A stretch of 64,000 nucleotides of DNA. Source: Stigmatella aurantiaca (GTDB lineage Bacteria > Myxococcota > Myxococcia > Myxococcales > Myxococcaceae). The notes under the pieces were generated by a model, which had not been told where the DNA came from, made no database searches, and saw only the letters and a list, made by a program, of their open reading frames with translations. Both the position numbers and the translations under genes were made by a program. The DNA lies in assembly GCF_900109545.1 (NCBI RefSeq), contig NZ_FOAP01000001.1:620001-684000 (forward strand), in the 5' to 3' direction. Shown piece by piece: positions 1,745-14,494 of the stretch (position 1 is the first letter of the stretch; the number at the start of each line of letters is the position of its first letter).

Positions 1745-4700
1745 ATGACTGAGCGGATGAGCGGCGCCGGACCGGCGGGCTCGCGGAGGCCTTTGGCCTG
1801 GGGCGTCCTGCCAGCCCTGCTGCTGGCACTTGGCACGGGTTGCTGGAGCGAGCTTGAGCAGGAGCCGGTGCTTCCGCTTGGGAGCGAACAAGACGCGCTG
1901 GTGGCGAGCACGAGCGGGATGATGAGCAGCCGCCGGTACCGGCACACGGCGACCAAGCTGCTCGATGGGCGGGTGCTGATTGCCGGCGGCACCTCGGGTG
2001 GGGCCATACTCGCCACCGCCGAGATTTATGATCCCGCGACGAAGTCGTTCACCGCGACGGGCTCGCTGGCGACGGCACGCCACCTCCACACCGCGGTCCT
2101 GCTCCCGGATGGCACCGTGCTCGTCGCAGGCGGCAGCAACGCCTCGCAGGTGCTCGCCACCGCGGAGCGCTTCCATCCCGCGAGCGGCACCTGGACGGCG
2201 GCGGGCACGATGGCGGAGGCCAGAACGTACCACGCGATGTCGCTCCTCCAGGACGGACGCGTGCTCGTCTCCGCGGGCCGTCATTGGAGTGCATCGCTGG
2301 CCACCGCGGAGCTCTTCAATCCCGCGACGAACACCTGGAGTGCGACGGGCCCTTTGTCGATGACGCGATATGACCACAGCGCGACCGTGCTGCCGAATGG
2401 CAAGGTCCTGGCCGCCGGGGGGTGGGGCCCGGCAAGCGCCACCGCGAGCGCGGAGCTGTACGACCCGGCCACAGGCACCTGGATGGCCACGGGCTCGATG
2501 CTCGACGCACGTGCGAGACACACCGCGACCCTGCTCCAGGACGGACGCGTCCTGGCCGTGGGCGACACGCGCCGGACGGAGCTCTACAATCCCGCGACGG
2601 GCTCGTGGACGGCGGCCGGCCTGCTGACAGACGGACGCTCGTCCCACGCCGCAGCGCGCCTGAGCGACGGAACGGTGCTGGTGGCGGGCGGTTGGAGCAA
2701 GATCCTGAGCGTCGAGCAGTTCTCTCCCGTGACAGGCACCTGGAGTGTCGTCGACTCCATCTGCACCCAGCGCCTCGAGCCCGCGTCCGTGGTGCTCGAC
2801 GACGGCAGCGTCCTCTTCGCGGGAGGCTTCTACTTCAACGGGGCGGGCAGCCAGGTCATGATGTCGACCGCCACGATCTGGAGCGGTGGCCCGCCGGCGG
2901 TGTGTCCGAACCTCCCGTCCATCACCGCGGCCTATGACCCCTCCCTGCGGGTGCCGCGGTGCAGCCAGACCGGCAGCGCCTGCGTTTCTGGAGGGCTGCT
3001 CAATGGTCATGCGAACGTGGGCCCTGAGCCGAACGCGCCGAACGCGATCTCCTCCTCGTGCTCGGACAGCCTCTCCGGGACGTACCACGTGACCCCGTCG
3101 ATCGACGCCATCCGCGTGTACACGGGGGATGGCTCCGCGCTCAGCGAGCGCCGTCCGGCCACCATCGAGGTGACGTACTGGGCTGCCGGGCCGTACGGCA
3201 AGATCGAGCTCTTCACCTCGGCCAGTGCCACCAGCCCGAACTGGGTCTGGCTCGGGACTTATTCACCGGAAGGCTCCGGGGCCCAGGTGCTCCGCAAGAC
3301 GGTCGACCTGCCCGTGGGGCCGCTCCAGGCCGTGCGCGCGAAGCTCTACCAGTCGCAGAGCGTGACGGTACCGCCCCCCGCATGCACCTGGGGCGCGGAC
3401 GATGTGGATGACCTGGTCTTCGCCGTGAGCGGAGATACGGAAGCGCTTCCGCCGGTGGTCTCGCTGAGTGGTCCTTCGTCCGGCTCGCGCCGGGGGGGAA
3501 CGGTGCGGCTCCGGGCGGAGGTGGCCGCGGACCGCACCGTCTCCCGGGTCGAGTTCTATCGCGGCACCGTGTTGCTCGGGAGCGACACCACGGCACCGTA
3601 TACCTTCGACTGGGATACGAAGACGGTGGCCAACGGGGCCCACAGCCTGACCGCGAAGGCCATCGACAACACCAACGCCTCGGGGACGAGCCAGACGGTC
3701 ACCCTCACCGTCGACAATGCCCTCGGCGCGGCGAGCTACAGTTCCGGCCTCCGCGCCCCCTGGTGCAGCGCGGCCGGCGGGGGCTGTGACTCCGGCGCCT
3801 TGCTCGAAGGCCGTGGAACGGTGGGCCCCGAGTCCAATCAGCCGAACACCATCAACGGGAGCTGTCCGGACGGCACCAGCGGAACCTATGGCGTCGAGGA
3901 GTCGAACGAGGCCGTCCGCGTCTACACCTCGGAGGGGGGGACCCTGCGGGAGGGCAAGTTGGCCACCGTCGAGGTGGATGTCCGGCCGAACAAGCTGCAG
4001 TCGAACGGCCAGCTTGACCTCTACTACGTCGCGAGCGCGGGCAGCTCGAACTGGCAGCTGCTGGCGACCTTGACGCCTTCGGGCACTCAGCCGCAAGTGC
4101 TCTCCGCGAGCTACGTGCTCCCTGTGGGGACGCTGCAGGCGGTACGCGCGCGCTTCCGGTATGGAGGCTTGGCCTCACCGTGCGGCAGCGGCAGCTACAT
4201 CGACCACGACGACCTGGTCTTCGCGGTCGCCTCGTCGGACACCCTCTCTCCGGTGGTGTCGCTCACCAGTCCCGCCCAGGGAGCGAGCCTGCAGGGCACG
4301 GCGGCGCTCACCGTCAACGCCTCCGACGAGCGAGGGGTCTCGCGTGTCGACTTCTATCGTGGGACGGCGCTCATCGGCAGCACCACCCTGGCGCCGTATT
4401 CGTATAGCTGGGATACACGGGCCGTGGCGAACGGCACGTACGGCTTGATCGCGCGCGCCTACGACGCGGCTGGCAACGTGGGCACCAGCGGGACGGTCAG
4501 CATCACCATCAACAATCCACCGTCCGTGGGGGCCACCTACGACGCGACGCTCCGCGCTCCGCGTTGCAGCGCCGTGGTGGCGCAGTGCTCGTCCGGGACC
4601 CTGCTCAACGGCCGTGCGAACCTCGGCCCCGAGCCAAACCAGCCGAACACGATCCATGGCTCGTGCCCGGACGTCTCGGGGGGAGGGTATCACTCCGACG

Positions 4701-5035
4701 AGTCACTGGATGCGCTCCGCGTCTACACGAACGACGGGACGCTCCTCTCCGCAGGAAAGACCGTGACGATCGAGGCCACCGTGTGGGCCTATTCCAGCTA
4801 CGCGTCGGACAAGCTCGACCTGTATTACGCGGCGGATGCAAGTGCTCCGTCGTGGAACTACATCACGACGCTCACTCCTACCAAGGGGGGAGCGAATACG
4901 CTGACGGCCAGCTATGTGTTGCCCGCAGGTCCCCTGCAGGCGATCCGCGGGCACTTCCGCTACGGTGGGGTCGCGAGTATCTGCGGCACCAGCGGCTTGG
5001 ATGATCACGATGACCTGATCTTCGCCGTCCAGTGA
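1745..5035 (+). CDS. Kelch-repeat lipoprotein with alternating Ig-like and triplicated Cys-containing modules
   Basis: This 1096-residue protein begins with a signal peptide ending in a lipobox (LGTGC, Cys33), so it should be an exported lipoprotein. Residues about 55-390 contain seven kelch-type motifs (for example VLVAGG followed by NPATNTWS), matching a seven-bladed beta-propeller. The rest alternates modules. A roughly 165-residue module recurs three times (about 397-563, 662-830 and 931-1096). Each copy starts Y-x3-LR-x-P-x-C and ends with D-D-L-V/I-F-A-V. Two bacterial Ig-like domains (about 568-657 and 835-923) lie between the copies. GGAGAGGG-like sequence precedes the ATG. The PPC-like lipoprotein gene follows with overlap. 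The role is probably cell-surface or matrix binding; no catalytic motif is visible. Confidence 0.9.
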   Translation: MTERMSGAGPAGSRRPLAWGVLPALLLALGTGCWSELEQEPVLPLGSEQDALVASTSGMMSSRRYRHTATKLLDGRVLIAGGTSGGAILATAEIYDPATKSFTATGSLATARHLHTAVLLPDGTVLVAGGSNASQVLATAERFHPASGTWTAAGTMAEARTYHAMSLLQDGRVLVSAGRHWSASLATAELFNPATNTWSATGPLSMTRYDHSATVLPNGKVLAAGGWGPASATASAELYDPATGTWMATGSMLDARARHTATLLQDGRVLAVGDTRRTELYNPATGSWTAAGLLTDGRSSHAAARLSDGTVLVAGGWSKILSVEQFSPVTGTWSVVDSICTQRLEPASVVLDDGSVLFAGGFYFNGAGSQVMMSTATIWSGGPPAVCPNLPSITAAYDPSLRVPRCSQTGSACVSGGLLNGHANVGPEPNAPNAISSSCSDSLSGTYHVTPSIDAIRVYTGDGSALSERRPATIEVTYWAAGPYGKIELFTSASATSPNWVWLGTYSPEGSGAQVLRKTVDLPVGPLQAVRAKLYQSQSVTVPPPACTWGADDVDDLVFAVSGDTEALPPVVSLSGPSSGSRRGGTVRLRAEVAADRTVSRVEFYRGTVLLGSDTTAPYTFDWDTKTVANGAHSLTAKAIDNTNASGTSQTVTLTVDNALGAASYSSGLRAPWCSAAGGGCDSGALLEGRGTVGPESNQPNTINGSCPDGTSGTYGVEESNEAVRVYTSEGGTLREGKLATVEVDVRPNKLQSNGQLDLYYVASAGSSNWQLLATLTPSGTQPQVLSASYVLPVGTLQAVRARFRYGGLASPCGSGSYIDHDDLVFAVASSDTLSPVVSLTSPAQGASLQGTAALTVNASDERGVSRVDFYRGTALIGSTTLAPYSYSWDTRAVANGTYGLIARAYDAAGNVGTSGTVSITINNPPSVGATYDATLRAPRCSAVVAQCSSGTLLNGRANLGPEPNQPNTIHGSCPDVSGGGYHSDESLDALRVYTNDGTLLSAGKTVTIEATVWAYSSYASDKLDLYYAADASAPSWNYITTLTPTKGGANTLTASYVLPAGPLQAIRGHFRYGGVASICGTSGLDDHDDLIFAVQ

Positions 5036-5037
5036 GC

Positions 5038-5619
5038 ATGGCCATGAAACGTACAGGCCTTGCGCTGATGCTGGTGACGTTGGGTGGGGCCGGGGCATGC
5101 CGTGCCCATCAGGAAGACGGCATCCCGGCCGCCATGGCCTGCGTGGATGATGCGTGGGAGGACGACGACACGCTGGAGCAGGCGAAGTCCACCCCCCCGC
5201 TCTCCCATATCTACAACCATGGGCCCTTGGTGCTGGAGGGAAGGGTGGCGTGCCCCGGCGATGCGGACTGGATTCAGGCCTGGGTGGACTGCTGTCACCC
5301 AGCGGGTGCCGTCGTGCGCTGGGATGCTTCACGGGGCCCCCTGGAGGTGGAGCTCCTGGATTCCAGTGGCCATCCCATCCCGCTGAGCGGCCCCGGAGAC
5401 ACCGTCCAACGCCAACCGGGGGAGATCCGCCTGCTTCGGGCCGAGCTTCAAAGCGGCTTCTTCGTCCGGGTTCGTGCCGGGGGCGCGGCAGCGGTGCCGT
5501 ACACCGTCAGCCTGACCGCGCCCGTGTTCGTCCATCGGATGCCTGAGGACCTCGTCGAGCCCTCGGCAGCCCGCGCTCTGGCTCAAGGGCGCAGAGGGGG
5601 CCCCATCGGGTGCCTGTGA
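5038..5619 (+). CDS. Small lipoprotein with a PPC-like beta-sandwich domain
   Basis: The protein is about 193 residues. A lipoprotein signal peptide ends in GAGAC (Cys21). The mature part has the layout of bacterial pre-peptidase C-terminal (PPC) domains: an acidic opening (DDAWEDDDTLEQA), then CPGDADW and a run of predicted beta strands. GTG (5032), ATG (5038) and ATG (5044) are all possible starts within the kelch gene's stop region, and I chose 5038. None has a strong ribosome binding site, so translation is probably coupled to the upstream gene. The pair likely makes two envelope proteins that work at the same surface. No enzymatic residue set is seen. Confidence 0.75.
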   Translation: MAMKRTGLALMLVTLGGAGACRAHQEDGIPAAMACVDDAWEDDDTLEQAKSTPPLSHIYNHGPLVLEGRVACPGDADWIQAWVDCCHPAGAVVRWDASRGPLEVELLDSSGHPIPLSGPGDTVQRQPGEIRLLRAELQSGFFVRVRAGGAAAVPYTVSLTAPVFVHRMPEDLVEPSAARALAQGRRGGPIGCL

Positions 5620-5701
5620 GCCCTTGCGAGCGGCCCGCTGTGCAGGGGAGGGGAGCGTCATCAAGGTAGGTATGAGGGCCCGTCCTCGAGAGGTGGGTGT
5701 C

Positions 5702-6352
5702 ATGTCGAATCCCCGGCTGCCTTCTCCCCGTACCATCGCGGACGCGCTGCTTGCCGGAGACAACGCGGCCGTTTTCGATGCCGCGAGCCGCTACATGAGC
5801 TTCGGAGGTGCCCCGTTCCTCGTGGACGCGCTTGCCTGTCCCGTCATGGAGGAGGTGGGGGCGCGCTGGCATGCTGGCACTGCATCCGTGGCGGACGAAC
5901 ACGCCGCCTCGGAGCTGTTGCGTGAGCTTTTCTCAACCCTGCTGCCTGGCCTGGCGTGGCATCAGGGGGGCCCCAAGGCTGTCGTTACCTGCGCTCCTGG
6001 CGAGCAGCACCTGCTGGGGGCCAAGCTCATTTCCCAGGTCTTGGCGCTCGACGGCTGGCACGTGCGGTTTCTCGGCGCGAACACCCCCGCCAAGGACCTC
6101 GCCCTGTTCGTCGCCCGCGAGCACCCGGTCCTCGTGGGGCTCTCGGTCACCATGGCCGACCACGTTCACGCCGCGCACACCGCGCTCGAGTTGATACACC
6201 GCAGGGCACCCGATGTCCGTCTCGTGGCGGGCGGGAGCGCGGCATGGGCGCTGAAGCCTGCCGGGCGAGAGGCGTGGACCGTGCTCTCCTCCACCCAGGA
6301 ACTCTTATGGCTGACGCGCGGCGGCACTGGCGGACACATCGGCCTCCGCTAA
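5702..6352 (+). CDS. Stand-alone B12-binding (CarH-type photosensor-like) domain protein
   Basis: This 216-residue protein consists only of a cobalamin-binding module. Residues about 10-85 form the helical cap. It carries W56 followed by nine residues and then E66-H67, the W-x9-EH motif of CarH/LitR-type sensors; H57 directly follows the Trp. The Rossmann-like half carries E101-x-H103-xx-G106, the E/D-x-H-xx-G signature whose His is the lower cobalt ligand. There is no MerR DNA-binding domain and no methyltransferase partner domain. I chose the ATG at 5702, which has GAGAGGTGGG upstream, over longer starts. It runs tail to tail, 8 bp apart, with a GAF histidine kinase. Light or B12 sensing by protein-protein contact is inferred, not shown. 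Confidence 0.85.
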   Translation: MSNPRLPSPRTIADALLAGDNAAVFDAASRYMSFGGAPFLVDALACPVMEEVGARWHAGTASVADEHAASELLRELFSTLLPGLAWHQGGPKAVVTCAPGEQHLLGAKLISQVLALDGWHVRFLGANTPAKDLALFVAREHPVLVGLSVTMADHVHAAHTALELIHRRAPDVRLVAGGSAAWALKPAGREAWTVLSSTQELLWLTRGGTGGHIGLR

Positions 6353-6360
6353 CCGGAGGC

Positions 6361-7644
6361 TCATCCCCCGGAGGGGAGGTGCGACGCCTCTCCCAGGGAG
6401 GGCCGCTGCGGCTGGGAATCCATCGGCAGGACGACGATGAAGGTCGAGCCCTTCCCTGGCTGACTGCGCACGACGATGGTCCCCCCGTGGGCCTCGACGA
6501 TCTGCCGCGCGACATACAACCCAAGCCCCATTCCCCCGTAGCGCTTGGGAGAGACCGCCCGCTCGAAGCGCTCGAAGATGCGGCTTGTGTCCGCGGGCAC
6601 CAGGCCGATCCCCTGGTCCTGGACGAACAGGCGCGCGACCCCCTGCTTTTCTTCCACGGACACGTCGATGGGGTGCCCGGCCCCGTACTTGATTGCATTC
6701 GAGATGAGACTGGAGAGCACCTGCTCCAGCCTCAGCCGGTCCCACACGCCTCGAACCTGTCCAGGGATATGGGCTTCCAGCTGGCACCCCGCTCCCTCCG
6801 CCTCTTCCTGGAAGCGGTCCGTCACCTCGGTGGCCAGTGCGGACAGATCCATGTCCTCCAGCAACAGGCCCAGCCGTCCGGTCGCGATGCGCGACACATC
6901 CAGCAGGCGGTCCACGAGCTGGATCAGGCGCTGCACCTGGGCCGTGGACCGTTCGAGGTGCCGCATCACCCGGGGGTCGTCGAGCCCGGCCGCCACCACG
7001 CTGCGGCGGAGCGTCTCCAGCTGTAGCTTCAGGGGGGTCAGGGGCGTGCGAAGCTCGTGGGCGGCAATGGAGAGAAATTCGTCCCGTGATTTGACTCCCT
7101 CCCGCTCCTTCTGGAGCAGCGGCTCGAGCTCGCGTGCGGCCTGGAGCTCCACCTGGGCCATCACACAGGCGGCGAGATCCTCGAGGATGCTCGCCTCGCG
7201 GTCCGTCCAGCGGCGCGGGACTGTATCCAGAACGCAGAGTGTCCCCACGGCATGGCCGCCGGAGCCGATGAGCGGAGCGCCTGCATAGGCAATCGCTCCC
7301 AAGGTCTCCAGGGCCAGGCACTCGCGGAGCAGGGGGTGCTGACGGGTATCCTCAACGAGCAAGAGCGCTCCCTTGGCCATCGTGTGTTGACACACCGAGT
7401 GCGACAGCGGCATCGCGCGTTGTCGCAGCCACGGCTCGGGCAGGCCAAGACAGCTCTTACAGAAGAGGCGCTCTTCAGCCAGAAAGTTCACCATCCCCAT
7501 GGGGGCGTGGAGACAGTGACACGCCAGCCGGGTGAGGCGGTCGAACGCCTCCTCCGCTGGGTTGTCCACGAGCCTCGTCTGGCGAGGATCCTCCAGGCGT
7601 TCCTGCGAGCGAAAGAGGCTCTGCACGTCGGCGCTCTCACCCAT
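6361..7644 (-). CDS. GAF-domain sensor histidine kinase
   Basis: This soluble kinase of 427 residues has no signal peptide or membrane segment. An N-terminal GAF domain (about 28-165) contains several cysteines (C42, C44, C62, C65, C85) and phytochrome-like spacing (SHSVCQHT, VGTLCVLD). It is followed by HisKA with H196 in AAHELRTPL and an HATPase domain (about 310-415) with N box LISNAIKYG and GMGLGLYVARQI. The GAF type matches the family found before HisKA in many orphan myxobacterial kinases. No response regulator is adjacent, so it is an orphan kinase. It converges on the B12-sensor gene with an 8-bp gap. Functional coupling between the two is only a possibility. Confidence 0.92.
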   Translation of the reverse strand: MGESADVQSLFRSQERLEDPRQTRLVDNPAEEAFDRLTRLACHCLHAPMGMVNFLAEERLFCKSCLGLPEPWLRQRAMPLSHSVCQHTMAKGALLLVEDTRQHPLLRECLALETLGAIAYAGAPLIGSGGHAVGTLCVLDTVPRRWTDREASILEDLAACVMAQVELQAARELEPLLQKEREGVKSRDEFLSIAAHELRTPLTPLKLQLETLRRSVVAAGLDDPRVMRHLERSTAQVQRLIQLVDRLLDVSRIATGRLGLLLEDMDLSALATEVTDRFQEEAEGAGCQLEAHIPGQVRGVWDRLRLEQVLSSLISNAIKYGAGHPIDVSVEEKQGVARLFVQDQGIGLVPADTSRIFERFERAVSPKRYGGMGLGLYVARQIVEAHGGTIVVRSQPGKGSTFIVVLPMDSQPQRPSLGEASHLPSGG

Positions 7645-7787: not shown

Positions 7788-9824
7788 CTACCGGTCGCCC
7801 GTCCAGTTGTTGCCGCCGCCGTCCTTGAACGAGAACGTCCCGGTGGAGACCTCGTCCTTCAAGAACAGGTTTCCAGAATTTGCCCGGGCGCCGCCGATGC
7901 TCGAGTTCTTGAGGATAATCGAACCCGTGGTGGGCATCCTCCCGCTGAGCGGGCTGGGCGGGGCCTTGTGCGAGTCATTGGCCACCATGCCAACATCGCC
8001 GGACTGCTCCAGGGTGATGTGGACGCCGTCAAACTCGGTGTCCTCGATCCGCTGCCCTTGCGTGGTCTGAACCAGGACCCCGTAGTGAACCGGGTCGATG
8101 ATGTCGACGTCCTTCAACCGGATGCCCTGGAAGCGGATCGGCGAGTACGGCTCGGCCGGGGAGTAGGGGTTGGCGGCGAACAGCCACACCGCGCCCCACT
8201 TCAGCCGCTTCGCCTCGTCTCCATGCACGCCGTCGTCGTCCCACCACATGCGGCCTCCGCAGCGCTCCACCGTCATGTTCTCCACGGTGGTGAGCCCGGC
8301 GAACTCGTGCTGGGGCGCGAACTCGTTGTCCACGGTGATGCCCGGGTAGCGCAGGGTGTCGTAGACCACCGAGTCCTTGATGACGTTGTCGTGGCCGCCG
8401 TAGACCGCGAAGCCGGCGGCCCGCCAGATGAGGCCCGCCGTGCAGCGCTCGATGACGTTGCCCTGGTTGGGGCCCTCGGGCTGCTTGACCCAGGGCGTGC
8501 TGCCAATGGGCGCCTTGTCCCAGGTGATGGCGGACCACATGGCGAAGGCGTCATCGCCGGTGTTTCGCGCCGTGGAGTTCACGATGCGCGAGTTGGTGGT
8601 GCCGTTGCAGAGGTTGATGCCGTCCGCAAGGGTGTTGCGGAACCGGCAGTCCTCCCACAGCAGGTTGTTGCCGCCCTCGACCCAGCCGCCCACGATCATC
8701 CGCTCGATCCAGAGCCGCTTGAAGGACGCGTTGTTGTGCATGTAGCGGTCGAAGGCGCGGCCGATCCCGTCGTAGCTGTCCCACGGCCAGTTGCCGATGG
8801 CCGCCGCCTCCTTGTTGTAGCGGGCCGCCCGGTTGCGCCAGCTTCCGAAGATGGCGAAGTCCTGGAAGGTGATGTTGTCGCCGCTCAGGCGGAACCCGAA
8901 CTCGTAGTTGTAGCCCACCTGCTCGGGAGGAGGCGGCACGAAGCGCGTGTGCCACATGCCGGCGCCCTGAACGGTCAGGCCGGCGGGAACGTAGACCTTG
9001 GGGCGCGCCGGATCCTCGTGCGACATCACGTAATCGCCCGGCGGGAGGAAGATGCCAGGCTTGCCGCCGTTCACGGCGTCCTGAAGGGCCTGCACCACCG
9101 CGGCTTCGGTGCGCTGGCTCACGACGACGTAATCCGCGGGGGTGGGGAGGGGCGTCGGCACGAGCTCCAGGTCCATGAAGTCGAGGGTGACGGGGAGGGT
9201 CGCGGAAGCATCTGGCGAGACGAGCTTCACCACATCGCCCTTGCGGATGGTGGCCTGGCCGTCGGCCGCCAGCAGCACGTGCGCCTCGTCGTAGATGTGG
9301 TGCGCGGAGCTCCAGGGCAGCTGCAGGCCAAAACCCACGTCGTTGGGGCTCGGGGTCTGGGGGAGCTCGTCCACCTGCTGGCGCGGCAGGGCGTTGTGCG
9401 TCTCGGTGTTGTTCGGACCGGTATAGAGCCAGGCGAAGTCCGAGTTCACCGTGAGCGTGGCCACCTTCGCGTCATTCACGTAGACATCCAGGTGGGCCTC
9501 CTTCTCGTCCGGCACGCTGTAGCGCACCACGACGGCGTTGGCCTCCACGCGGCTCGTCCACGTGACGGCGGCGGTGGGTCCATGCAGGGTCACCGCCTTG
9601 CGGCCCGAGGCTTCGCCGGAGAGCGTTCCTTCCAGCCACGGGCCGCTGGTGGTCTGCTCGAGGGTGGCGCCACCGGAGTAATCGCCCGCCTCGGCTTCGT
9701 ACGCGTCCCAGGGGACGGTGGCGCCGCGGGGGACGGGGGAGCCGCTGGGGGGGGCGCTGGGGTCATCGCTGCAAGCCGCGAGCAGAAGGCACACGCAGGC
9801 CGATACGAGGATCGGACGAATCAT
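7788..9824 (-). CDS. Secreted lipoprotein with CBM35-like domain and beta-helix, GH87-like (alpha-1,3-glucanase candidate)
   Basis: This 678-residue protein starts at the ATG at 9824 with a lipoprotein signal (LLAAC, Cys18). Residues about 38-225 look like a CBM35/CBM6-type carbohydrate-binding domain (opening with YEAEAGDYSGGA). Residues about 235-678 form a right-handed beta-helix: an IFLPPGDY start followed by many short strand-turn repeats. The acidic clusters LADGINL (D401) and NTGDDAFAMWS (D424-D425) recall the catalytic Asp residues of GH87 mycodextranase/alpha-1,3-glucanase. That family call is from memory, not a search. The ribosome binding site (AGGAG) is buried in the 3' arm of a perfect 14-bp hairpin. 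The upstream neighbour on the same strand is another beta-helix protein. A role in degrading fungal or bacterial glucan by a predator is inferred. Confidence 0.8.
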   Translation of the reverse strand: MIRPILVSACVCLLLAACSDDPSAPPSGSPVPRGATVPWDAYEAEAGDYSGGATLEQTTSGPWLEGTLSGEASGRKAVTLHGPTAAVTWTSRVEANAVVVRYSVPDEKEAHLDVYVNDAKVATLTVNSDFAWLYTGPNNTETHNALPRQQVDELPQTPSPNDVGFGLQLPWSSAHHIYDEAHVLLAADGQATIRKGDVVKLVSPDASATLPVTLDFMDLELVPTPLPTPADYVVVSQRTEAAVVQALQDAVNGGKPGIFLPPGDYVMSHEDPARPKVYVPAGLTVQGAGMWHTRFVPPPPEQVGYNYEFGFRLSGDNITFQDFAIFGSWRNRAARYNKEAAAIGNWPWDSYDGIGRAFDRYMHNNASFKRLWIERMIVGGWVEGGNNLLWEDCRFRNTLADGINLCNGTTNSRIVNSTARNTGDDAFAMWSAITWDKAPIGSTPWVKQPEGPNQGNVIERCTAGLIWRAAGFAVYGGHDNVIKDSVVYDTLRYPGITVDNEFAPQHEFAGLTTVENMTVERCGGRMWWDDDGVHGDEAKRLKWGAVWLFAANPYSPAEPYSPIRFQGIRLKDVDIIDPVHYGVLVQTTQGQRIEDTEFDGVHITLEQSGDVGMVANDSHKAPPSPLSGRMPTTGSIILKNSSIGGARANSGNLFLKDEVSTGTFSFKDGGGNNWTGDR

Positions 9825-9834
9825 CGTTTGCTGG

Positions 9835-9873
9835 CTCCTATACTTCGAAACAGGAAGTCTCGAAGTATAGGAG
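9835..9873 (-). promoter_or_regulatory. Perfect 14-bp hairpin sequestering the ribosome binding site
   Basis: CTCCTATACTTCGA (9835-9848) and TCGAAGTATAGGAG (9860-9873) are exact complements with an 11-nt loop. The repeat sits in the 59-bp gap between two same-strand genes. In the minus-strand transcript the 3' arm ends in TAGGAG, the likely Shine-Dalgarno sequence, 10 nt before the ATG at 9824. The stem would therefore hide the ribosome binding site of the downstream gene. It has no U-tract, so it is not a standard terminator. Translational control or mRNA processing fits better. Confidence 0.7.
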
Positions 9874-9883
9874 GAGTGCGAAC

Positions 9884-11404
9884 TCAGGAGCAGTCGGATT
9901 CGCGCGCGCCGATGTCCGGCCCCCGGCCACAGTAGGTAGCGCCCACGGCCTGGCCCGCGTCCCGTGCCGGAGACGTGGTGGAGAGCCAGAAGTCCTCGGG
10001 GGCTCCGCTCAGGAACGCGGGGTTCTTGTCCAGGGAGTGCGCGTCCCAGCCGGTGGCCGAGCGCCAGGCGGTGAGGTTCAGGTAGCTGCCGTCCTTGCGC
10101 AACACGGCCGCGCCCTTGAGCGAGGCGTACAGGTTGCCATCGAAGGAGGTGTCCTGGAGGGTGGTGCCCAGCCGCACCGCCGCGCCCGAGCACGCGCCGA
10201 GGATGTTGTTTCGCACCCGCACGCCCTGGCTGGGCCCGCTCACGCCGTTGCCCACGATGAGGCCGTAGGCGGGCATGTTCCACACGGTGTTGTGGTCCAC
10301 CTTCACGTCGATGGCCGTGTCCACGCGGATGCCCGAGCCGTCGTTGCCGTCCGCGTTGTAGCCGTCGAACACGCGGTTGCGCCGCAGCACGATGCGGGTG
10401 GGGGGCGCGCCCTCGCGGATGCCGCCGATCTGGATGCCCCGGCCGTTGCCGCGCACCTCGTTGTCCTCGAGCGTGACGTCGAGCGCGGACAGGTGCACCA
10501 CCACGCCCTCTCCCGCCGACGAGGGGGTGCGGAGGTGGCCCCAGATGCGGTTGCCCCGGAGCGTCACGCGGGTGCACGTCTTGATGTCCACGCCGTTCTC
10601 CCGGTTCTCGTGCAAGTCATTGTCCTCGACGAGCAGGTTGTCGAAGGGCGTGCCCGGCTCGGTGGAGCCGCCCTCGGGCCCCAGGCACTGCACCCCGTCC
10701 CCGGAGTTGTGGTGGATGTCGTTGGCGCGGACGATGACGTTCTTGGAGTTGGTCTGCACACAGACGCCGTGGCTGTCATCATCGCCCGCGCGCCGGAAGT
10801 TGCTGATGCTGTTGCCCTCGATGAGCACGTCATGGGCCTGCTGGGCGACGTAAGCGCCCGCGCCATCGGTGCCGTTCTTGAGCGTGCTGGCGCGCAGGAT
10901 GCCGTGGTGCGCGCCCACGCCGCGCCAGATGGCCGCGAAGGCCTTGTCTCCCGCCGCGTCGAGGGTGAGCCCCTCGACGTGCCAGTACGCCCCGCGCACG
11001 TCCAGCAGGGCCGTGCGGCTGCCCGTGCCGCCCTTGAAGATGGGGCTGGCGCCCGGCGCGGCCTTGAGCGTGAGGGGGGCGCTGGCCGAGCCGCCCTTCT
11101 CCTCGAGCCGCAGCCGCTCGGAGTAGGTGCCGGACTTGAGGAAGATGGCCTCACCCGGCTTCACCTGCGACAGCGCCTTGGCCACGGTCCGGAATGGGGC
11201 CACCTCCGTGCCCGCGGCGGTGTCCTGGCCCGAAGGGGAGACCCAGAGGATGCGGGAGAATGTCGGCGTGGCCGCGACGGCGGACCAGGCGTGTTCCGGG
11301 GCGAAGTGCTGCTCATCGGCGGCAGCAAGAACACCGGCCGAGGAAACCAAGACACCCACCAGGGCCATGGGCGAAATGGCCTTCAGCAAAGGACTCCGAC
11401 GCAT
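9884..11404 (-). CDS. Secreted right-handed beta-helix protein (pectate-lyase-like fold)
   Basis: This exported protein of 506 residues has a Sec signal peptide (hydrophobic run to about residue 28, ending LAAAD). After a short linker it enters a DUF1565-like opening (LWVSPSGQDTAAGT...PFRTVAKAL, GEAIFLKSGTY). About ten parallel beta-helix coils follow, rich in G-N-x-I/V and N-x-I-H turns. It ends in a Cys-containing tail (YCGRGPDIGARESDC) common to polysaccharide-lyase-like proteins of the PL9 type. A catalytic residue cannot be assigned by eye, so it may be a lyase, an epimerase or a glycan-binding protein. I chose the ATG at 11404 over a GTG at 11410 because AAGGAG then has normal spacing. 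It lies upstream of the GH87-like gene in the same direction. Confidence 0.85.
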   Translation of the reverse strand: MRRSPLLKAISPMALVGVLVSSAGVLAAADEQHFAPEHAWSAVAATPTFSRILWVSPSGQDTAAGTEVAPFRTVAKALSQVKPGEAIFLKSGTYSERLRLEEKGGSASAPLTLKAAPGASPIFKGGTGSRTALLDVRGAYWHVEGLTLDAAGDKAFAAIWRGVGAHHGILRASTLKNGTDGAGAYVAQQAHDVLIEGNSISNFRRAGDDDSHGVCVQTNSKNVIVRANDIHHNSGDGVQCLGPEGGSTEPGTPFDNLLVEDNDLHENRENGVDIKTCTRVTLRGNRIWGHLRTPSSAGEGVVVHLSALDVTLEDNEVRGNGRGIQIGGIREGAPPTRIVLRRNRVFDGYNADGNDGSGIRVDTAIDVKVDHNTVWNMPAYGLIVGNGVSGPSQGVRVRNNILGACSGAAVRLGTTLQDTSFDGNLYASLKGAAVLRKDGSYLNLTAWRSATGWDAHSLDKNPAFLSGAPEDFWLSTTSPARDAGQAVGATYCGRGPDIGARESDCS

Positions 11405-11405
11405 C

Positions 11406-11420
11406 CACACTCCTTGTGTG
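11406..11420 (-). promoter_or_regulatory. Small stem with the ribosome binding site in its loop
   Basis: CACAC (11406-11410) and GTGTG (11416-11420) pair perfectly. On the minus strand the 5-nt loop is AAGGA, the Shine-Dalgarno core of the gene starting at 11404. The stem is short and may be chance, but the position is precise. Confidence 0.3.
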
Positions 11421-11580
11421 AGCCCCGCTTGGGGCGGGGGACAGGGGATGGGGCGCCGGACAGTTGGTTGGCGGAGATCATTCCTCCTGCCCGCCGCTTC
11501 GGCCGCCTGGCCGTTCGCAACAGGAGCGAGCAGGACATATGATTTCAGAGGCTTGGCGGAAGCTTGCGGCTCTGCACAGA

Positions 11581-11616
11581 CGGCAGCAGGGAGGGGCCTT
11601 GGCCCCTCGGCCGCCG
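11581..11616 (-). terminator. Hairpin downstream of the Cys-rich lipoprotein gene
   Basis: The core GAGGGGCC-TT-GGCCCCTC (11591-11608) is an exact palindrome. Outer arms CGGC...GCCG extend the stem to 11581-11616 with a few mismatches. It lies 14 bp past the stop of the minus-strand gene ending at 11630. No clear T-run follows in the minus direction, so it is a probable but imperfect terminator. Confidence 0.4.
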
Positions 11617-11629
11617 TCCAGAAGGCGCT

Positions 11630-12193
11630 TTACGGGCAGTACTCCATGTCCGAGCGGCACACCCCGTCGCCGCAGCGGCACGATCTGCCGCCGGGGCAGT
11701 TGTTACAGGGATCGTACGGGTCCGGGTCCGGCGGGGGGCACGCCCAGTACACGTACTTGCCGACCGTCCTGCTGGGGGTGGACCCGCAGGTGGTCCGGTT
11801 GCCATTGCTGTCGATGACCATGGGCCACGCATTCACCTGGAAGTAATGCGTGCCGCAGGGGATCCCCATGGTGCTGAAATACCAGGCGCCCGCGTTGCCG
11901 GGGCGCTCGTCGAAGGCGTACCGGATGCCATCGACGTAGTAGTCCAACCGCACCGCGTTGGAGAACTGGGACACCGCCCAGTAGCCCACGCCCGAGACCT
12001 CGTTCACGTACATGGTGGCGTCCGAGAGGGTCAGACTGCTGACGCTCAGGCCCGCGCACAGGGACGATTCTTGAGTGCCCAGGGACTCCTCGGCCGAAGC
12101 CGCGTCTGCTTCGAGGTGAGTGCCACCACAGGCCATGAGCAGCGCTCCGGACATCAATGCCCAGAGCGAAGTGCAGATCGATTTTCGAAGCAT
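11630..12193 (-). CDS. Cys-rich secreted lipoprotein of unknown function
   Basis: This protein of 187 residues has a lipoprotein signal ending MSGALLMAC (Cys22). The middle part (about 45-150) looks like one compact beta domain with motifs such as VNEVSGVGYWAVSQF and LDYYVDGIRYAFDE. The C-terminus carries a small Pro/Cys-rich tail with six cysteines between CNNC and the final YCP, as seen in many myxobacterial surface lipoproteins. It has a strong sigma-70-like promoter (12225-12252) and an AAAGGAA ribosome binding site. That fits a well-expressed single-gene unit. It lies between the beta-helix genes and a divergent methyltransferase. I do not recognise the domain. Confidence 0.85.
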   Translation of the reverse strand: MLRKSICTSLWALMSGALLMACGGTHLEADAASAEESLGTQESSLCAGLSVSSLTLSDATMYVNEVSGVGYWAVSQFSNAVRLDYYVDGIRYAFDERPGNAGAWYFSTMGIPCGTHYFQVNAWPMVIDSNGNRTTCGSTPSRTVGKYVYWACPPPDPDPYDPCNNCPGGRSCRCGDGVCRSDMEYCP

Positions 12194-12300: not shown

Positions 12301-13299
12301 ATGCCGCGCCCCCCCGTGTCCGCTGAACGCCCGCGCCGTTTCCATGCTGAGCCGCTGGTCCACATCCTGCGCTACCTGGAGACGGCGCTGGGTTCGGGCC
12401 CCGTGTCCATCGAGGTGCCGGACCCGGACCTGGGGCCGGGGCGCTACGCCGGAGAGCGGGTGGGGCCCGAGGGCGGTTGGGTTCACCGGCCGCTGCGGAA
12501 TTGGTGTGATTTGGCCGAAGGGTTGTCCTGCCGTCTGCGCACACCCCGCGCGGCCGGGGACACGCACGTGGTGCTCACCTTCGAGCCCCTGGGGGCCGAG
12601 GCGCCGTGGCACGCGGGCAGCGGGGAGGCCGCGCGCTCGGGGCCTCCCGAGGAACGGTATGGCGCCGCATCCGCCTTCGCCCGGGTGCGGAAGTTCGAGG
12701 ACGCGGGCTTCCTGCTGCCGTGGCGGGAGGCGGCGGGCCGGCTGAGATTGCCTCCGGGGGCGCGGGTGCTGGACCTGGGGGTCAACCGGGGGGATGAGCT
12801 GGCCGCGTTCGAGTGGGCGACGGGGGCACAAGCGGTCCGCTTCGTTGGCGTGGACCACAGTGCCAGCGCGCTTGCCGAGGCCCGGGGGGCCTTTCCGGAC
12901 GCGCGCCATTCGTTCGTGCAGGCGGACTTGAATGCGCTCCCGGCGGGGTTGGGCCGCTTCGATGCGGTGGTGTCCGTGGGCACACTGCAAAGCCCGGGCG
13001 TGGACGACCGGGCCCTGTTGCGAAGGCTCGTGCAGGAGCACCTGGAACCCCGGGCCGCGATGGTGCTGGGCTTTCCCAACTCCCGCTTCCGGGATGGAGA
13101 GGCCCTGTATGGCGCGCGCGTGCGCAACCTGACCGAGCCGGACCTGTCGCTGCTGGTGAAGGATCTGTCCTTCTACCGCCGCTACCTGCACCAGCACGGC
13201 TTCCGCACGTTCCTGGGCGGAAAGTACGACCTGCTCCTCACGGCGGTCCGCGGACAGCCGTCAGATGCCCGGGACGAGGCGGAGCCGCCCCAGGACTGA
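12301..13299 (+). CDS. Class I SAM-dependent methyltransferase
   Basis: The protein has 332 residues. The N-terminal third (about 1-120) has no recognised motif. From about 145 it is a Rossmann methyltransferase: motif I VLDLGVNRGDE (156-166), an acidic residue ending the second strand in FVGVDHS, then FDAVVSVGTLQS. It resembles methyltransferases that modify small molecules or lipids, but the substrate cannot be read. It is transcribed divergently from the Cys-rich lipoprotein, sharing a roughly 107-bp AT-richer intergenic region. The start at ATG 12301 is preceded by GGGTGAGGG. The C-terminal 15 residues are acidic and probably disordered. Confidence 0.85.
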   Translation: MPRPPVSAERPRRFHAEPLVHILRYLETALGSGPVSIEVPDPDLGPGRYAGERVGPEGGWVHRPLRNWCDLAEGLSCRLRTPRAAGDTHVVLTFEPLGAEAPWHAGSGEAARSGPPEERYGAASAFARVRKFEDAGFLLPWREAAGRLRLPPGARVLDLGVNRGDELAAFEWATGAQAVRFVGVDHSASALAEARGAFPDARHSFVQADLNALPAGLGRFDAVVSVGTLQSPGVDDRALLRRLVQEHLEPRAAMVLGFPNSRFRDGEALYGARVRNLTEPDLSLLVKDLSFYRRYLHQHGFRTFLGGKYDLLLTAVRGQPSDARDEAEPPQD

Positions 13300-13303
13300 G
13301 GGT

Positions 13304-13660
13304 TCACGCACGGGGCTCGTCTTCGAAGCGCATCGTGCCGTCCGGCGCCACGGAACAGGCCCGGACGGCGGTCACGGCGGAGATGGCCAGGGGCGCATAG
13401 AGGTGCGGGAACAGATCGCCGCCGCGAGATGGCTCCCAGCGCAGGGCGTCGCCCAGGCCTTCGAGCGGGACCGTCAGCAGGAGAAGGTTGCCGCGGCCGG
13501 CGTAGTGGCGCCGAGCGGTCTCGGCCAGTTGAAGGGCGGTCGACATGTGGATGTAGCCATCGGCCCGGTCCACCGCCGAGCCGGTGTAGACGCCCTGGGC
13601 CCGGGCGGCCTCCCATTCGCTGGCGTCAACGAGTTTGAAGGCTTCGGTGGGCCGGGTCAT
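13304..13660 (-). CDS. DUF952 family protein
   Basis: This protein of 118 residues matches the small DUF952 family along its full length. It opens FKLVDASEWEAA, has the typical GYIHMSTALQL segment and an LLLLTVPLEGL strand, and closes with FPHLYAPL. The family is widespread and sometimes linked to glutathione-related or detoxification genes, but its biochemical role is not established. I chose the ATG at 13660 because the conserved domain starts a few residues later. An ATG at 13690 would add an unconserved leader. It converges on the methyltransferase with a 4-bp gap. Confidence 0.8.
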   Translation of the reverse strand: MTRPTEAFKLVDASEWEAARAQGVYTGSAVDRADGYIHMSTALQLAETARRHYAGRGNLLLLTVPLEGLGDALRWEPSRGGDLFPHLYAPLAISAVTAVRACSVAPDGTMRFEDEPRA

Positions 13661-13852
13661 GTGCCGGCCCTCCGTGCGGGGAAGAGGCATTCGTGCATCC
13701 GGTCACCCTACTGGACAAGGTGGTTCATTGGACTTGGGTCCAGGGTGCCGGCATGTCTGGCGGCACGCCGCACAGGCGGATTCTCCGGCCGTCTGTGCAT
13801 TGAGTGTCCGATACCTACCATGAGGGAGTTCCAACCATCGGGAGAACACGTG

Positions 13853-14494
13853 ATGAGAGACTTCAAGGCGGCGGTCGTTGGCTCGTTGGCGGCGGCACTT
13901 CTCTGGGCTCCGGTTTCCCTGGCCCAGTCCACGTCATCTACCTCGACCGCAACGGGGGGCACGGACACGGCTCAATCCGGGAGCGTGACGGGCACTTCCG
14001 GGCAGGGCGGCTCAGGCTCCGCGGGGGATTTCGGGAGCTCGGGAACGGATGTGGGGGCCAGCGACTCGGGCGTGATGGGAACGGGCGGTTCGGGCAGTGC
14101 CGGGAGCGTGGACGGCCAGGACAGCACGGGGACCGGGAATAACAGCGTGGGCACCGGCGGCAGCAGCACGGGCACGGGAGGGAGCGACCTGGGGAGCACC
14201 GGCACGGGTGGCACTGGAACGGGCAGCGACCTGGGCAACACCGGCACGGGTGGGGCTGGAACGGGCACCGGCCTGGACAGCACGGGCAGCGACCTGGGCA
14301 ACACCGGCACGGGAGATGACCTGGGCGGCACCGGCGGGGCCGGCACGACTGGCACGGGCACCGGCGGCGATCTGGGGAGCACCGGCACGGAGGGCGACCT
14401 GAGCGGCACCGGGACGGGCTCGAACACCGCCACGGATCCTGGCACGGGAAGCGGGACCAGCACGGGGAACCTGGGCGGCAGCACGGGCCGCTAG
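13853..14494 (+). CDS. Exported Gly/Thr/Ser low-complexity repeat protein
   Basis: The protein is 213 residues. It starts at the ATG at 13853 (GGGAGAAC upstream) with a Sec signal peptide (MRDFKAAVVGSLAAALLWA, cleavage near SLA-Q). All the rest is low complexity: Gly, Thr, Ser and Asp, with recurring units such as DLG-x-TGTG, GTGTG and GGTGTG. There is no Cys, hardly any aromatic residue and no predicted globular domain. The underlying DNA is itself repetitive (ggcacgggtgg-type units), so unequal recombination could change its length. Similar myxobacterial proteins are usually hypothetical. A structural or matrix role is plausible, but nothing proves it. It stands alone between convergent or unrelated genes. 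Confidence 0.75.
   Translation: MRDFKAAVVGSLAAALLWAPVSLAQSTSSTSTATGGTDTAQSGSVTGTSGQGGSGSAGDFGSSGTDVGASDSGVMGTGGSGSAGSVDGQDSTGTGNNSVGTGGSSTGTGGSDLGSTGTGGTGTGSDLGNTGTGGAGTGTGLDSTGSDLGNTGTGDDLGGTGGAGTTGTGTGGDLGSTGTEGDLSGTGTGSNTATDPGTGSGTSTGNLGGSTGR
13970..14490 (+). repeat. Low-complexity GGC/ACC-rich repeat tract inside the Gly/Thr-rich protein gene
   Basis: Short imperfect units around ggcacgggtgg and gacctgggcagcaccggcacg recur through about 500 bp. All six frames appear open because of the composition, including an antisense frame reading Pro-Val repeats. The frame supported by a signal peptide and start site is the plus-strand one. Confidence 0.7.

Follow-up and report, generated by a model that had tools for sequence, protein, structure and literature searches.

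A stand-alone B12 photosensor-like protein and a convergent GAF histidine kinase form a conserved, relocatable gene pair in Stigmatella aurantiaca and other Myxococcota

The window (the whole stretch of 64,000 nucleotides of Stigmatella aurantiaca DNA that we analysed) contains, at 5702-6352 on the plus strand, an intact frame with an ATG start and 216 codons plus stop. Pfam assigned two domains to the encoded protein, B12-binding_2 at aa 11-80 (42.7 bits; cut-off 23) and B12-binding at aa 92-180 (56.9 bits; cut-off 32.1), and yielded no DNA-binding domain, MerR included. A bilin-binding globin domain is likewise absent from the protein, whose chain ends after the B12 domain. The frame can be extended upstream to a TTG at 5624, giving 242 aa; because only 26 residues are added, this extension cannot hold a MerR domain. 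A histidine kinase gene faces the B12 gene on the minus strand, with eight bases between the two stop codons. The first-pass annotation of this DNA had described a cap and a B12-binding domain only, tail to tail with a GAF histidine kinase, and had placed W56, H57, E66, H67, E101, H103 and G106 as listed here; all of this was borne out.

5702..6352, plus strand: stand-alone B12-binding photosensor-like protein, 216 aa (ORF list, Pfam, NCBIfam)
5732..5941, plus strand: helical cap, aa 11-80 (Pfam B12-binding_2; AlphaFold2 helices 9-17, 21-57 and 63-80)
5867..5902, plus strand: Wx9EH motif with upper-face W56, H57, E66 and H67 (pattern match; alignment to T. thermophilus CarH)
5975..6241, plus strand: Rossmann-type B12-binding domain, aa 92-180 (Pfam B12-binding)
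6002..6019, plus strand: E101-x-H103-xx-G106, lower axial His motif (pattern match; H103 aligned to CarH H177)
6353..6360: gap of 8 bases between the convergent stop codons
6361..7644, minus strand: partner kinase of 427 aa, running towards the B12 gene (Pfam GAF, HisKA and HATPase_c above cut-off)
6418..6741, minus strand: HATPase_c catalytic domain of the partner, aa 302-409 (Pfam, 98.5 bits)
6880..7086, minus strand: HisKA, dimerisation and phosphoacceptor domain of the partner, aa 187-255 (Pfam, 57.4 bits)
7162..7557, minus strand: GAF domain of the partner, aa 30-161 (Pfam, 51.5 bits)

The B12 protein was compared with published sequence patterns of light-responsive B12 domains. Besides Wx9EH, it contains the whole pattern [DE]xHxxG-x41-Sx[TV]-x22-27-GG (both from PMC9304148). 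The SignatureFinder signature of light-responsive B12 domains, which consists of GxxW, EH, GxxH and GxxxP (PMC11796333), is complete at G53-W56, E66-H67, G100-H103 and G125-P129, corresponding in the alignment to CarH positions 128-203. When aligned to the T. thermophilus HB8 CarH sequence from the plasmid record, W56, H57, E66, H67 and H103 match CarH W131, H132, E141, H142 and H177. At the sequence level, all the published motifs tested are kept in the 216-aa protein.

The best NCBIfam match is CarH (the TransRegCarH equivalog), with 82 bits against a cut-off of 400. CarH also provided the top PDB sequence matches (E 5.5e-21; ~31% identity over the B12 domain), and the match to R. capsulatus AerR (7te2) was weak (E 0.0056, 19.7 bits), so that the window protein is nearer in sequence to CarH than to AerR. 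An AlphaFold2 model, built from 22 aligned relatives, reached a mean pLDDT of 89.3 and a pTM of 0.84. The best solved match found by Foldseek was CarH 5c8d (E 9.8e-13). VIA-align 2 ranked photocobilin 8j2x first (Z 23.3, rmsd 2.7, 204 aligned), followed by CarH 5c8d (Z 20.2, rmsd 3.4, 198 aligned), MetH (Z 19.8, rmsd 3.2, 206 aligned), a methylamine corrinoid protein (Z 18.1, rmsd 3.4, 203 aligned) and AerR (Z 16.6, rmsd 4.5, 197 aligned). Since MetH and the methylamine corrinoid protein score nearly as high as the photoreceptors, the fold by itself is no proof of a photoreceptor, and we base that reading on the motif set and the sequence scores. The structure prediction and CarH alignment suggested in the first-pass annotation thus favour its view of the protein: best similarity to methyl-carrying corrinoid proteins, which it had named as a refutation, was not found, the best matches being photoreceptor B12 domains.

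Orthologues of the B12 protein (60% identity or more) were present in 11 of 190 Myxococcota genomes, and those of the same genus are 92, 84 and 83% identical. E66 and H67 are retained in all 11 orthologues and Trp56 in 10. The exception is the closest one (G001, 92%), whose motif reads YHEGTASVADEH, with Tyr in place of Trp56; accordingly, either Trp56 is not essential or the G001 copy is changing. The upper His, His57 in the window protein, is more variable (His in five orthologues, Cys in five and Ala in one). The H132A substitution in CarH is described as altering the light state and hindering tetramer dissociation (PMC10442372), and together with the variation at this site this means that a strict CarH mechanism cannot be common to all orthologues. 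Different photochemistry may also be at work in CtMerR and the photocobilins (PMC11796333). The earlier proposal that the protein carries the light-sensing features of CarH therefore stands for the motif set as a whole, and does not extend through the family for His57 or, in G001, for the Trp.

CarH residues at the dimer interface are conserved to differing degrees. Arg176 and Asp201 of CarH, which presumably form a dimer salt bridge, correspond to Gln102 and Asn127 in the window protein; Arg and Asp occupy these positions in 6/11 orthologues. The Gly160 position of CarH is Ala or Gly in all 11, and Gly192 is kept; on these grounds we do not argue from a lost CarH tetramer interface. The Arg-Asp pair of CarH is itself mentioned in PMC9304148. 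Pairwise dN/dS values for the B12 gene range from 0.28 to 0.54 in the eight pairs computed, which indicates purifying selection.

The kinase gene is adjacent to and convergent with the B12 gene at each of the 11 loci, which answers in the affirmative the co-occurrence check proposed for the gene pair. A scan of named genomes yielded only two loci, both from Pyxidicoccus, on the contigs already represented by G128 and G131, and each was entered in the tally a single time. The GAF domains nearest to that of the partner (E 1e-57 or better) come from the same 11 of 190 genomes. Among 59 related genomes, full-length kinase matches of 84-100% identity were confined to the window genome, G001, G004 and G005, each beside a B12 gene. 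The next tier of GAF kinases, 47-54% identical over the GAF domain, had no B12 neighbour in the eight loci opened. Since related unlinked kinases exist, this kinase type does not need a B12 neighbour, and a strict tie between the two was ruled out. In the kinase tree, the 11 linked kinases fall on one side of a branch with 100/100 support and the eight unlinked paralogues on the other. Three linked kinases of genus g23 measure ~600 aa, and the one that was scanned (G128) contains two GAF domains. Distances between B12 proteins and between kinases correlate with r 0.91 over 55 non-independent pairs. No natural fusion of a B12 domain and a kinase was present among 4722 ORFs of the fetched loci, and no response regulator gene stands directly beside the pair.

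The pair occupies three genomic contexts. In the window genome and in G001, glucanase, beta-helix and methyltransferase-like genes lie downstream of it. G004 and G005 carry the pair next to a block that, by resemblance, we take to encode glucose-6-phosphate dehydrogenase and 6-phosphogluconate dehydrogenase, and in the seven genomes of g23 it adjoins yet another gene set. Glucanase orthologues of G004 and G005 are found elsewhere in those genomes, without the other tested window genes around them. An empty site was identified in the window genome (G000) and in G001, where the G005 flanks stand side by side without the pair. In the window genome this block lies on another contig, and a lipoprotein-like gene is directly followed by a kinase-like gene of 435 aa that in G005 stands beyond the B12/kinase pair. 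The match between G005 and the empty site runs up to ~9566 of locus L044 and resumes from ~11728. Because the flanks match up to both ends, the extra stretch in G005 comprises just the two genes. Collectively, these data identify the B12 gene and its convergent GAF kinase as a conserved, relocatable two-gene module.

When L044 ~9566-11728 was compared with the empty site of G000 (L157), the matched flanks were seen to overlap there by ~38 bases. The overlap could be a target-site duplication or microhomology from the event that moved the pair.

We then considered B12 genes more broadly. The loci were picked by similarity to the window protein and not by neighbourhood, and wide flanks were available for part of the matches. 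A set of 48 B12-domain genes was reduced to 41 by removal of short duplicates (L063-L066), contig copies (L075, L076) and the MetH gene of the window. A histidine kinase lies within three genes of 24 of the 30 non-MerR genes as compared with none of the 11 MerR-type (CarH/CarA) genes, MerR being called by a WERR-type motif, so that another DNA-binding domain could escape in L048, L061, L097, L098 and L105. Those five and L046 are the six non-MerR genes without such a kinase. Of the 24 kinase-linked genes, 11 belong to the module and nine to a second family (described below), and the others are L047, L049, L054 and L056; many of the 24 are orthologues and they are therefore not 24 independent events. 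Sorted by layout, the genes with a linked kinase form about six groups and those lacking one form five. In L047 the kinase ORF overlaps the B12 gene downstream on the same strand, and in L049 it follows on the same strand after a gap of 1 base. Chance kinase neighbours are expected to be uncommon, though not rare, given that the 9.37 Mb window genome holds at least 150 HATPase_c domains (all 150 that were scored of 229 candidates).

The relative in L046 (genome G018, 48% identity; 10004-10672) has T-N in place of E-H, keeps the lower His and has no kinase neighbour, which makes it a natural light-blind candidate. That E-H is lost where the kinase neighbour is absent fits a link between the two, in this single case.

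Cobalamin-dependent genes also stand beside signalling genes outside this set. Azospirillum thermophilum L137 (3572-5866) contains a gene for a 353-aa cobalamin-dependent protein followed by a HAMP histidine kinase gene, and a B12-domain ORF and a kinase ORF are arranged in the same way in A. brasilense Sp 7 (L138, ~3497-5911). On three Streptomyces plasmids (L141, L144, L148), a phosphatase gene of PP2C or GAF-SpoIIE type is immediately followed by a cobalamin-dependent gene of 353-364 aa; a STAS gene comes next in two of the three, an order that resembles partner-switching neighbours.

The second family is exemplified in the window genome by L050 (9635-14590; contig C3 148134-153089), in which another stand-alone Wx9EH B12 gene, a gene for a 218-aa protein and two hybrid histidine kinase genes lie on one strand. 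The 218-aa protein has no Pfam match. The first match of its family profile was the bilin half of photocobilin SasPcob (E 0.26), and its model (pLDDT 91.4) resembled ApcE (Z 14.6, rmsd 2.7, 113 aligned) and photocobilin 8j2x (Z 13.1, rmsd 2.3, 109 aligned); Foldseek matched it to bilin-binding globins with E 0.05 and probability 0.99. It contains RGMC, a motif reported for biliverdin-binding BBAG-2 globins (PMC10151467). This bilin-globin-like protein occurs in 59 of the 190 Myxococcota genomes. The L050 arrangement resembles a photocobilin divided between two genes and connected to histidine kinases. PMC10151467 also notes an association between B12-binding proteins and the globins of various Myxococcales; in the available text, this is the closest statement in print, and it concerns the second family.

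Several known systems share features with the window protein. CarH, the B12-dependent photoreceptor and repressor of T. thermophilus and M. xanthus, has in common with it the cap and Rossmann B12 domain, Wx9EH and ExHxxG, but has a MerR DNA-binding domain and goes with carotenoid genes, whereas the window protein is paired with a kinase. AerR/PpaA is likewise an unfused B12 domain with a Trp at its upper face. Its upper His is His10 of an N-terminal extension (PMC9144470), in contrast to the candidate His57 beside the Trp in the window protein, and its partner is a transcription factor (CrtJ/PpsR) rather than a kinase. The photocobilins (SasPcob, AbDPcob), which include the best structural match, carry a bilin-binding globin domain that the window protein does not have, and the partner studied is a diguanylate cyclase. 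The window protein may itself be among the 1561 hits of the SignatureFinder survey, whose outputs are given as fused HTH, DGC, GAF and MEDS domains; the words histidine kinase, standalone and stand-alone are absent from the survey text as available (PMC11796333). Taken together, the window protein is not CarH, not AerR by sequence, not a photocobilin and not a corrinoid methyl carrier, and it would operate in the manner of the first three.

Light input to a HisKA/HATPase_c kinase, as proposed for the window pair, is familiar from LOV, phytochrome and PYP histidine kinases. In photoreceptor histidine kinases the sensor is, as a rule, within the kinase chain. The terms cobalamin, B12 and CarH do not occur in the available text of a 2019 review of these kinases (PMC6798134), and in the open-access literature searched we came across no report of a B12 photosensor paired with a histidine kinase. 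Action by contact is not new: stand-alone AerR acts in this way on CrtJ (PMC9144470), and stand-alone photocobilins can do so on a separate diguanylate cyclase (PMC10979010). The first-pass annotation therefore overstated its case in calling a diffusible, contact-acting B12 light sensor unusual; within the literature searched, the new part would be the histidine kinase partner.

We think it rather probable that the 216-aa protein senses light through adenosylcobalamin, as an unfused sensor, and that the convergent GAF histidine kinase is its output, reached through contact. In favour of this reading are the domain content, the motif set, the predicted fold, purifying selection, the constant association with a single kinase clade and the joint gain or lack of both genes. 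Binding and photolysis of B12 would be expected by analogy with the known families; direct contact with the kinase, its site and its sign are our proposal. In the dark, adenosylcobalamin would sit between the two domains: W56, E66 and H67 of the cap would cover the adenosyl group, and H103 of the Rossmann domain would lie below the cobalt. Light would break the cobalt-carbon bond, upon which the adenosyl group would leave and the cap would move. This movement would alter the contact with the kinase, likeliest at the GAF domain or the helical linker into HisKA, and thereby alter kinase activity, with the dark form inhibiting and light relieving the inhibition. In a model of AerR with CrtJ (PMC9144470), the fourth cap helix of AerR packs against the Q-linker helix of CrtJ, which makes the kinase helix between GAF and HisKA (~aa 162-186) our first guess for the contact. 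The proposed sign follows the photocobilin-cyclase pair, in which adenosylcobalamin lowers and light raises activity, also when the two are separate proteins (PMC10979010).

More generally, the pair may be a mobile two-gene B12 light-sensing two-component system, whose unfused adenosylcobalamin sensor would contact and thereby switch a soluble histidine kinase. It would then be one of several independent layouts by which Myxococcota link unfused B12 photosensors to histidine kinases (the convergent pair, an overlapping operon, and an operon that contains two hybrid kinases and a bilin-binding globin as a protein of its own). On this wider proposal we find the case evenly balanced. Several findings count against our preferred explanation: Tyr in place of Trp56 in G001, the variable upper His, the Gln and Asn at the dimer-contact positions, the E-H-less G018 relative that has no kinase neighbour, the GAF kinases that stand apart from any B12 gene, the absence of a natural fusion among the 4722 ORFs, the high structural scores of MetH and the methylamine corrinoid protein, and the six of 30 non-MerR genes with no kinase nearby. 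In addition, convergent genes are not co-transcribed.

The same lack of an operon favours a B12 photosensor with another target, such as a transcription factor or a distant enzyme, the two genes co-travelling as a cassette without their products touching. Stand-alone AerR, with its transcription factor target, sets a precedent for such an arrangement, and GAF kinases of the same type do occur without a B12 neighbour. We consider this explanation unlikely, because the pair is retained at 11/11 loci despite changing flanks, is present or absent as a unit, and because unrelated stand-alone B12 genes also adjoin histidine kinases, some of them translationally coupled.

Alternatively, the protein could bind cobalamin and report its form or supply, or oxygen and redox state, rather than light, to the kinase. 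The Tyr that replaces Trp56 in the 92% relative and the presence of the upper His in only 5/11 orthologues are in keeping with this possibility; the photoresponse of CarH integrates light and oxygen (PMC10442372), and an AerR relative in Rhodospirillum rubrum is described as responding to redox state (PMC10734443). Yet the adenosyl-contacting E66 and H67 are invariant and the Trp is nearly so, and CtMerR and the photocobilins are light-sensitive with the same signature, in part through different photochemistry (PMC11796333), which leaves a purely non-photic role distinctly improbable.

Erosion of the motif in single relatives (Trp to Tyr in G001, loss of E-H in G018) might suggest a degenerate, functionless remnant of CarH that has lost its DNA-binding domain. 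We rejected this very improbable origin on account of the dN/dS values and the conservation of an intact frame in 11 genomes; moreover, the window genome has its own carH and carA in a carotenoid cluster (L051), to whose products the window protein is only 30% identical. Finally, a corrinoid methyl carrier of an MtaC/MtbC-type methyltransferase system, which has the same two-domain layout, is scarcely credible and was rejected on family scores and neighbourhood: the NCBIfam scores (MtbC 28.2 bits, cut-off 350; pyl_corrinoid 26.4 bits, cut-off 215.3) are far under their cut-offs and under that of CarH, no cobalamin methyltransferase was recognised among the predicted window genes within ~10 kb, the SAM-type methyltransferase-like gene at 12301-13299 does not accompany the pair in G004 or G005, only the GAF kinase is common to the neighbourhood of all orthologues, and the upper-face W-E-H set belongs to photoreceptors.

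If a light sensor acting on its neighbouring kinase is the correct reading, green light sensed through B12 would feed a phosphorelay, beyond the repressors (CarH), CrtJ (AerR) and cyclic-di-GMP enzymes (photocobilins) served so far. Myxobacteria alter fruiting-body formation in light, a response for which Stigmatella aurantiaca is known, and the receptors discussed in the available text of PMC11832031 are phytochromes and PYP; a green-light channel would hence be a new candidate for the myxobacterial light response. Being small, unfused and provided with a natural kinase target, such a light sensor would also be a candidate optogenetic part.

Further observations concern the surroundings of these genes. 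Just behind the kinase, at 7788-11410, the window has two neighbouring genes: one encodes a beta-helix protein resembling glucanases (Pfam CatAgl_D1/D2), the other a secreted protein that is probably a beta-helix as well. Upstream of the B12 gene, at 1745-5035, lies a gene for a 1096-aa protein with kelch repeats and two Big_7 bacterial Ig domains, a position that is not retained in G001. A Gly/Thr/Ser-rich ORF at 13265-14494 contains many TGTGG-type near-repeats. Near the carotenoid genes with carA and carH on contig C23 (L051, 595-3898), three consecutive genes encode proteins in which a secretion-like start precedes tandem hexapeptide repeats of the SVNGLS type.
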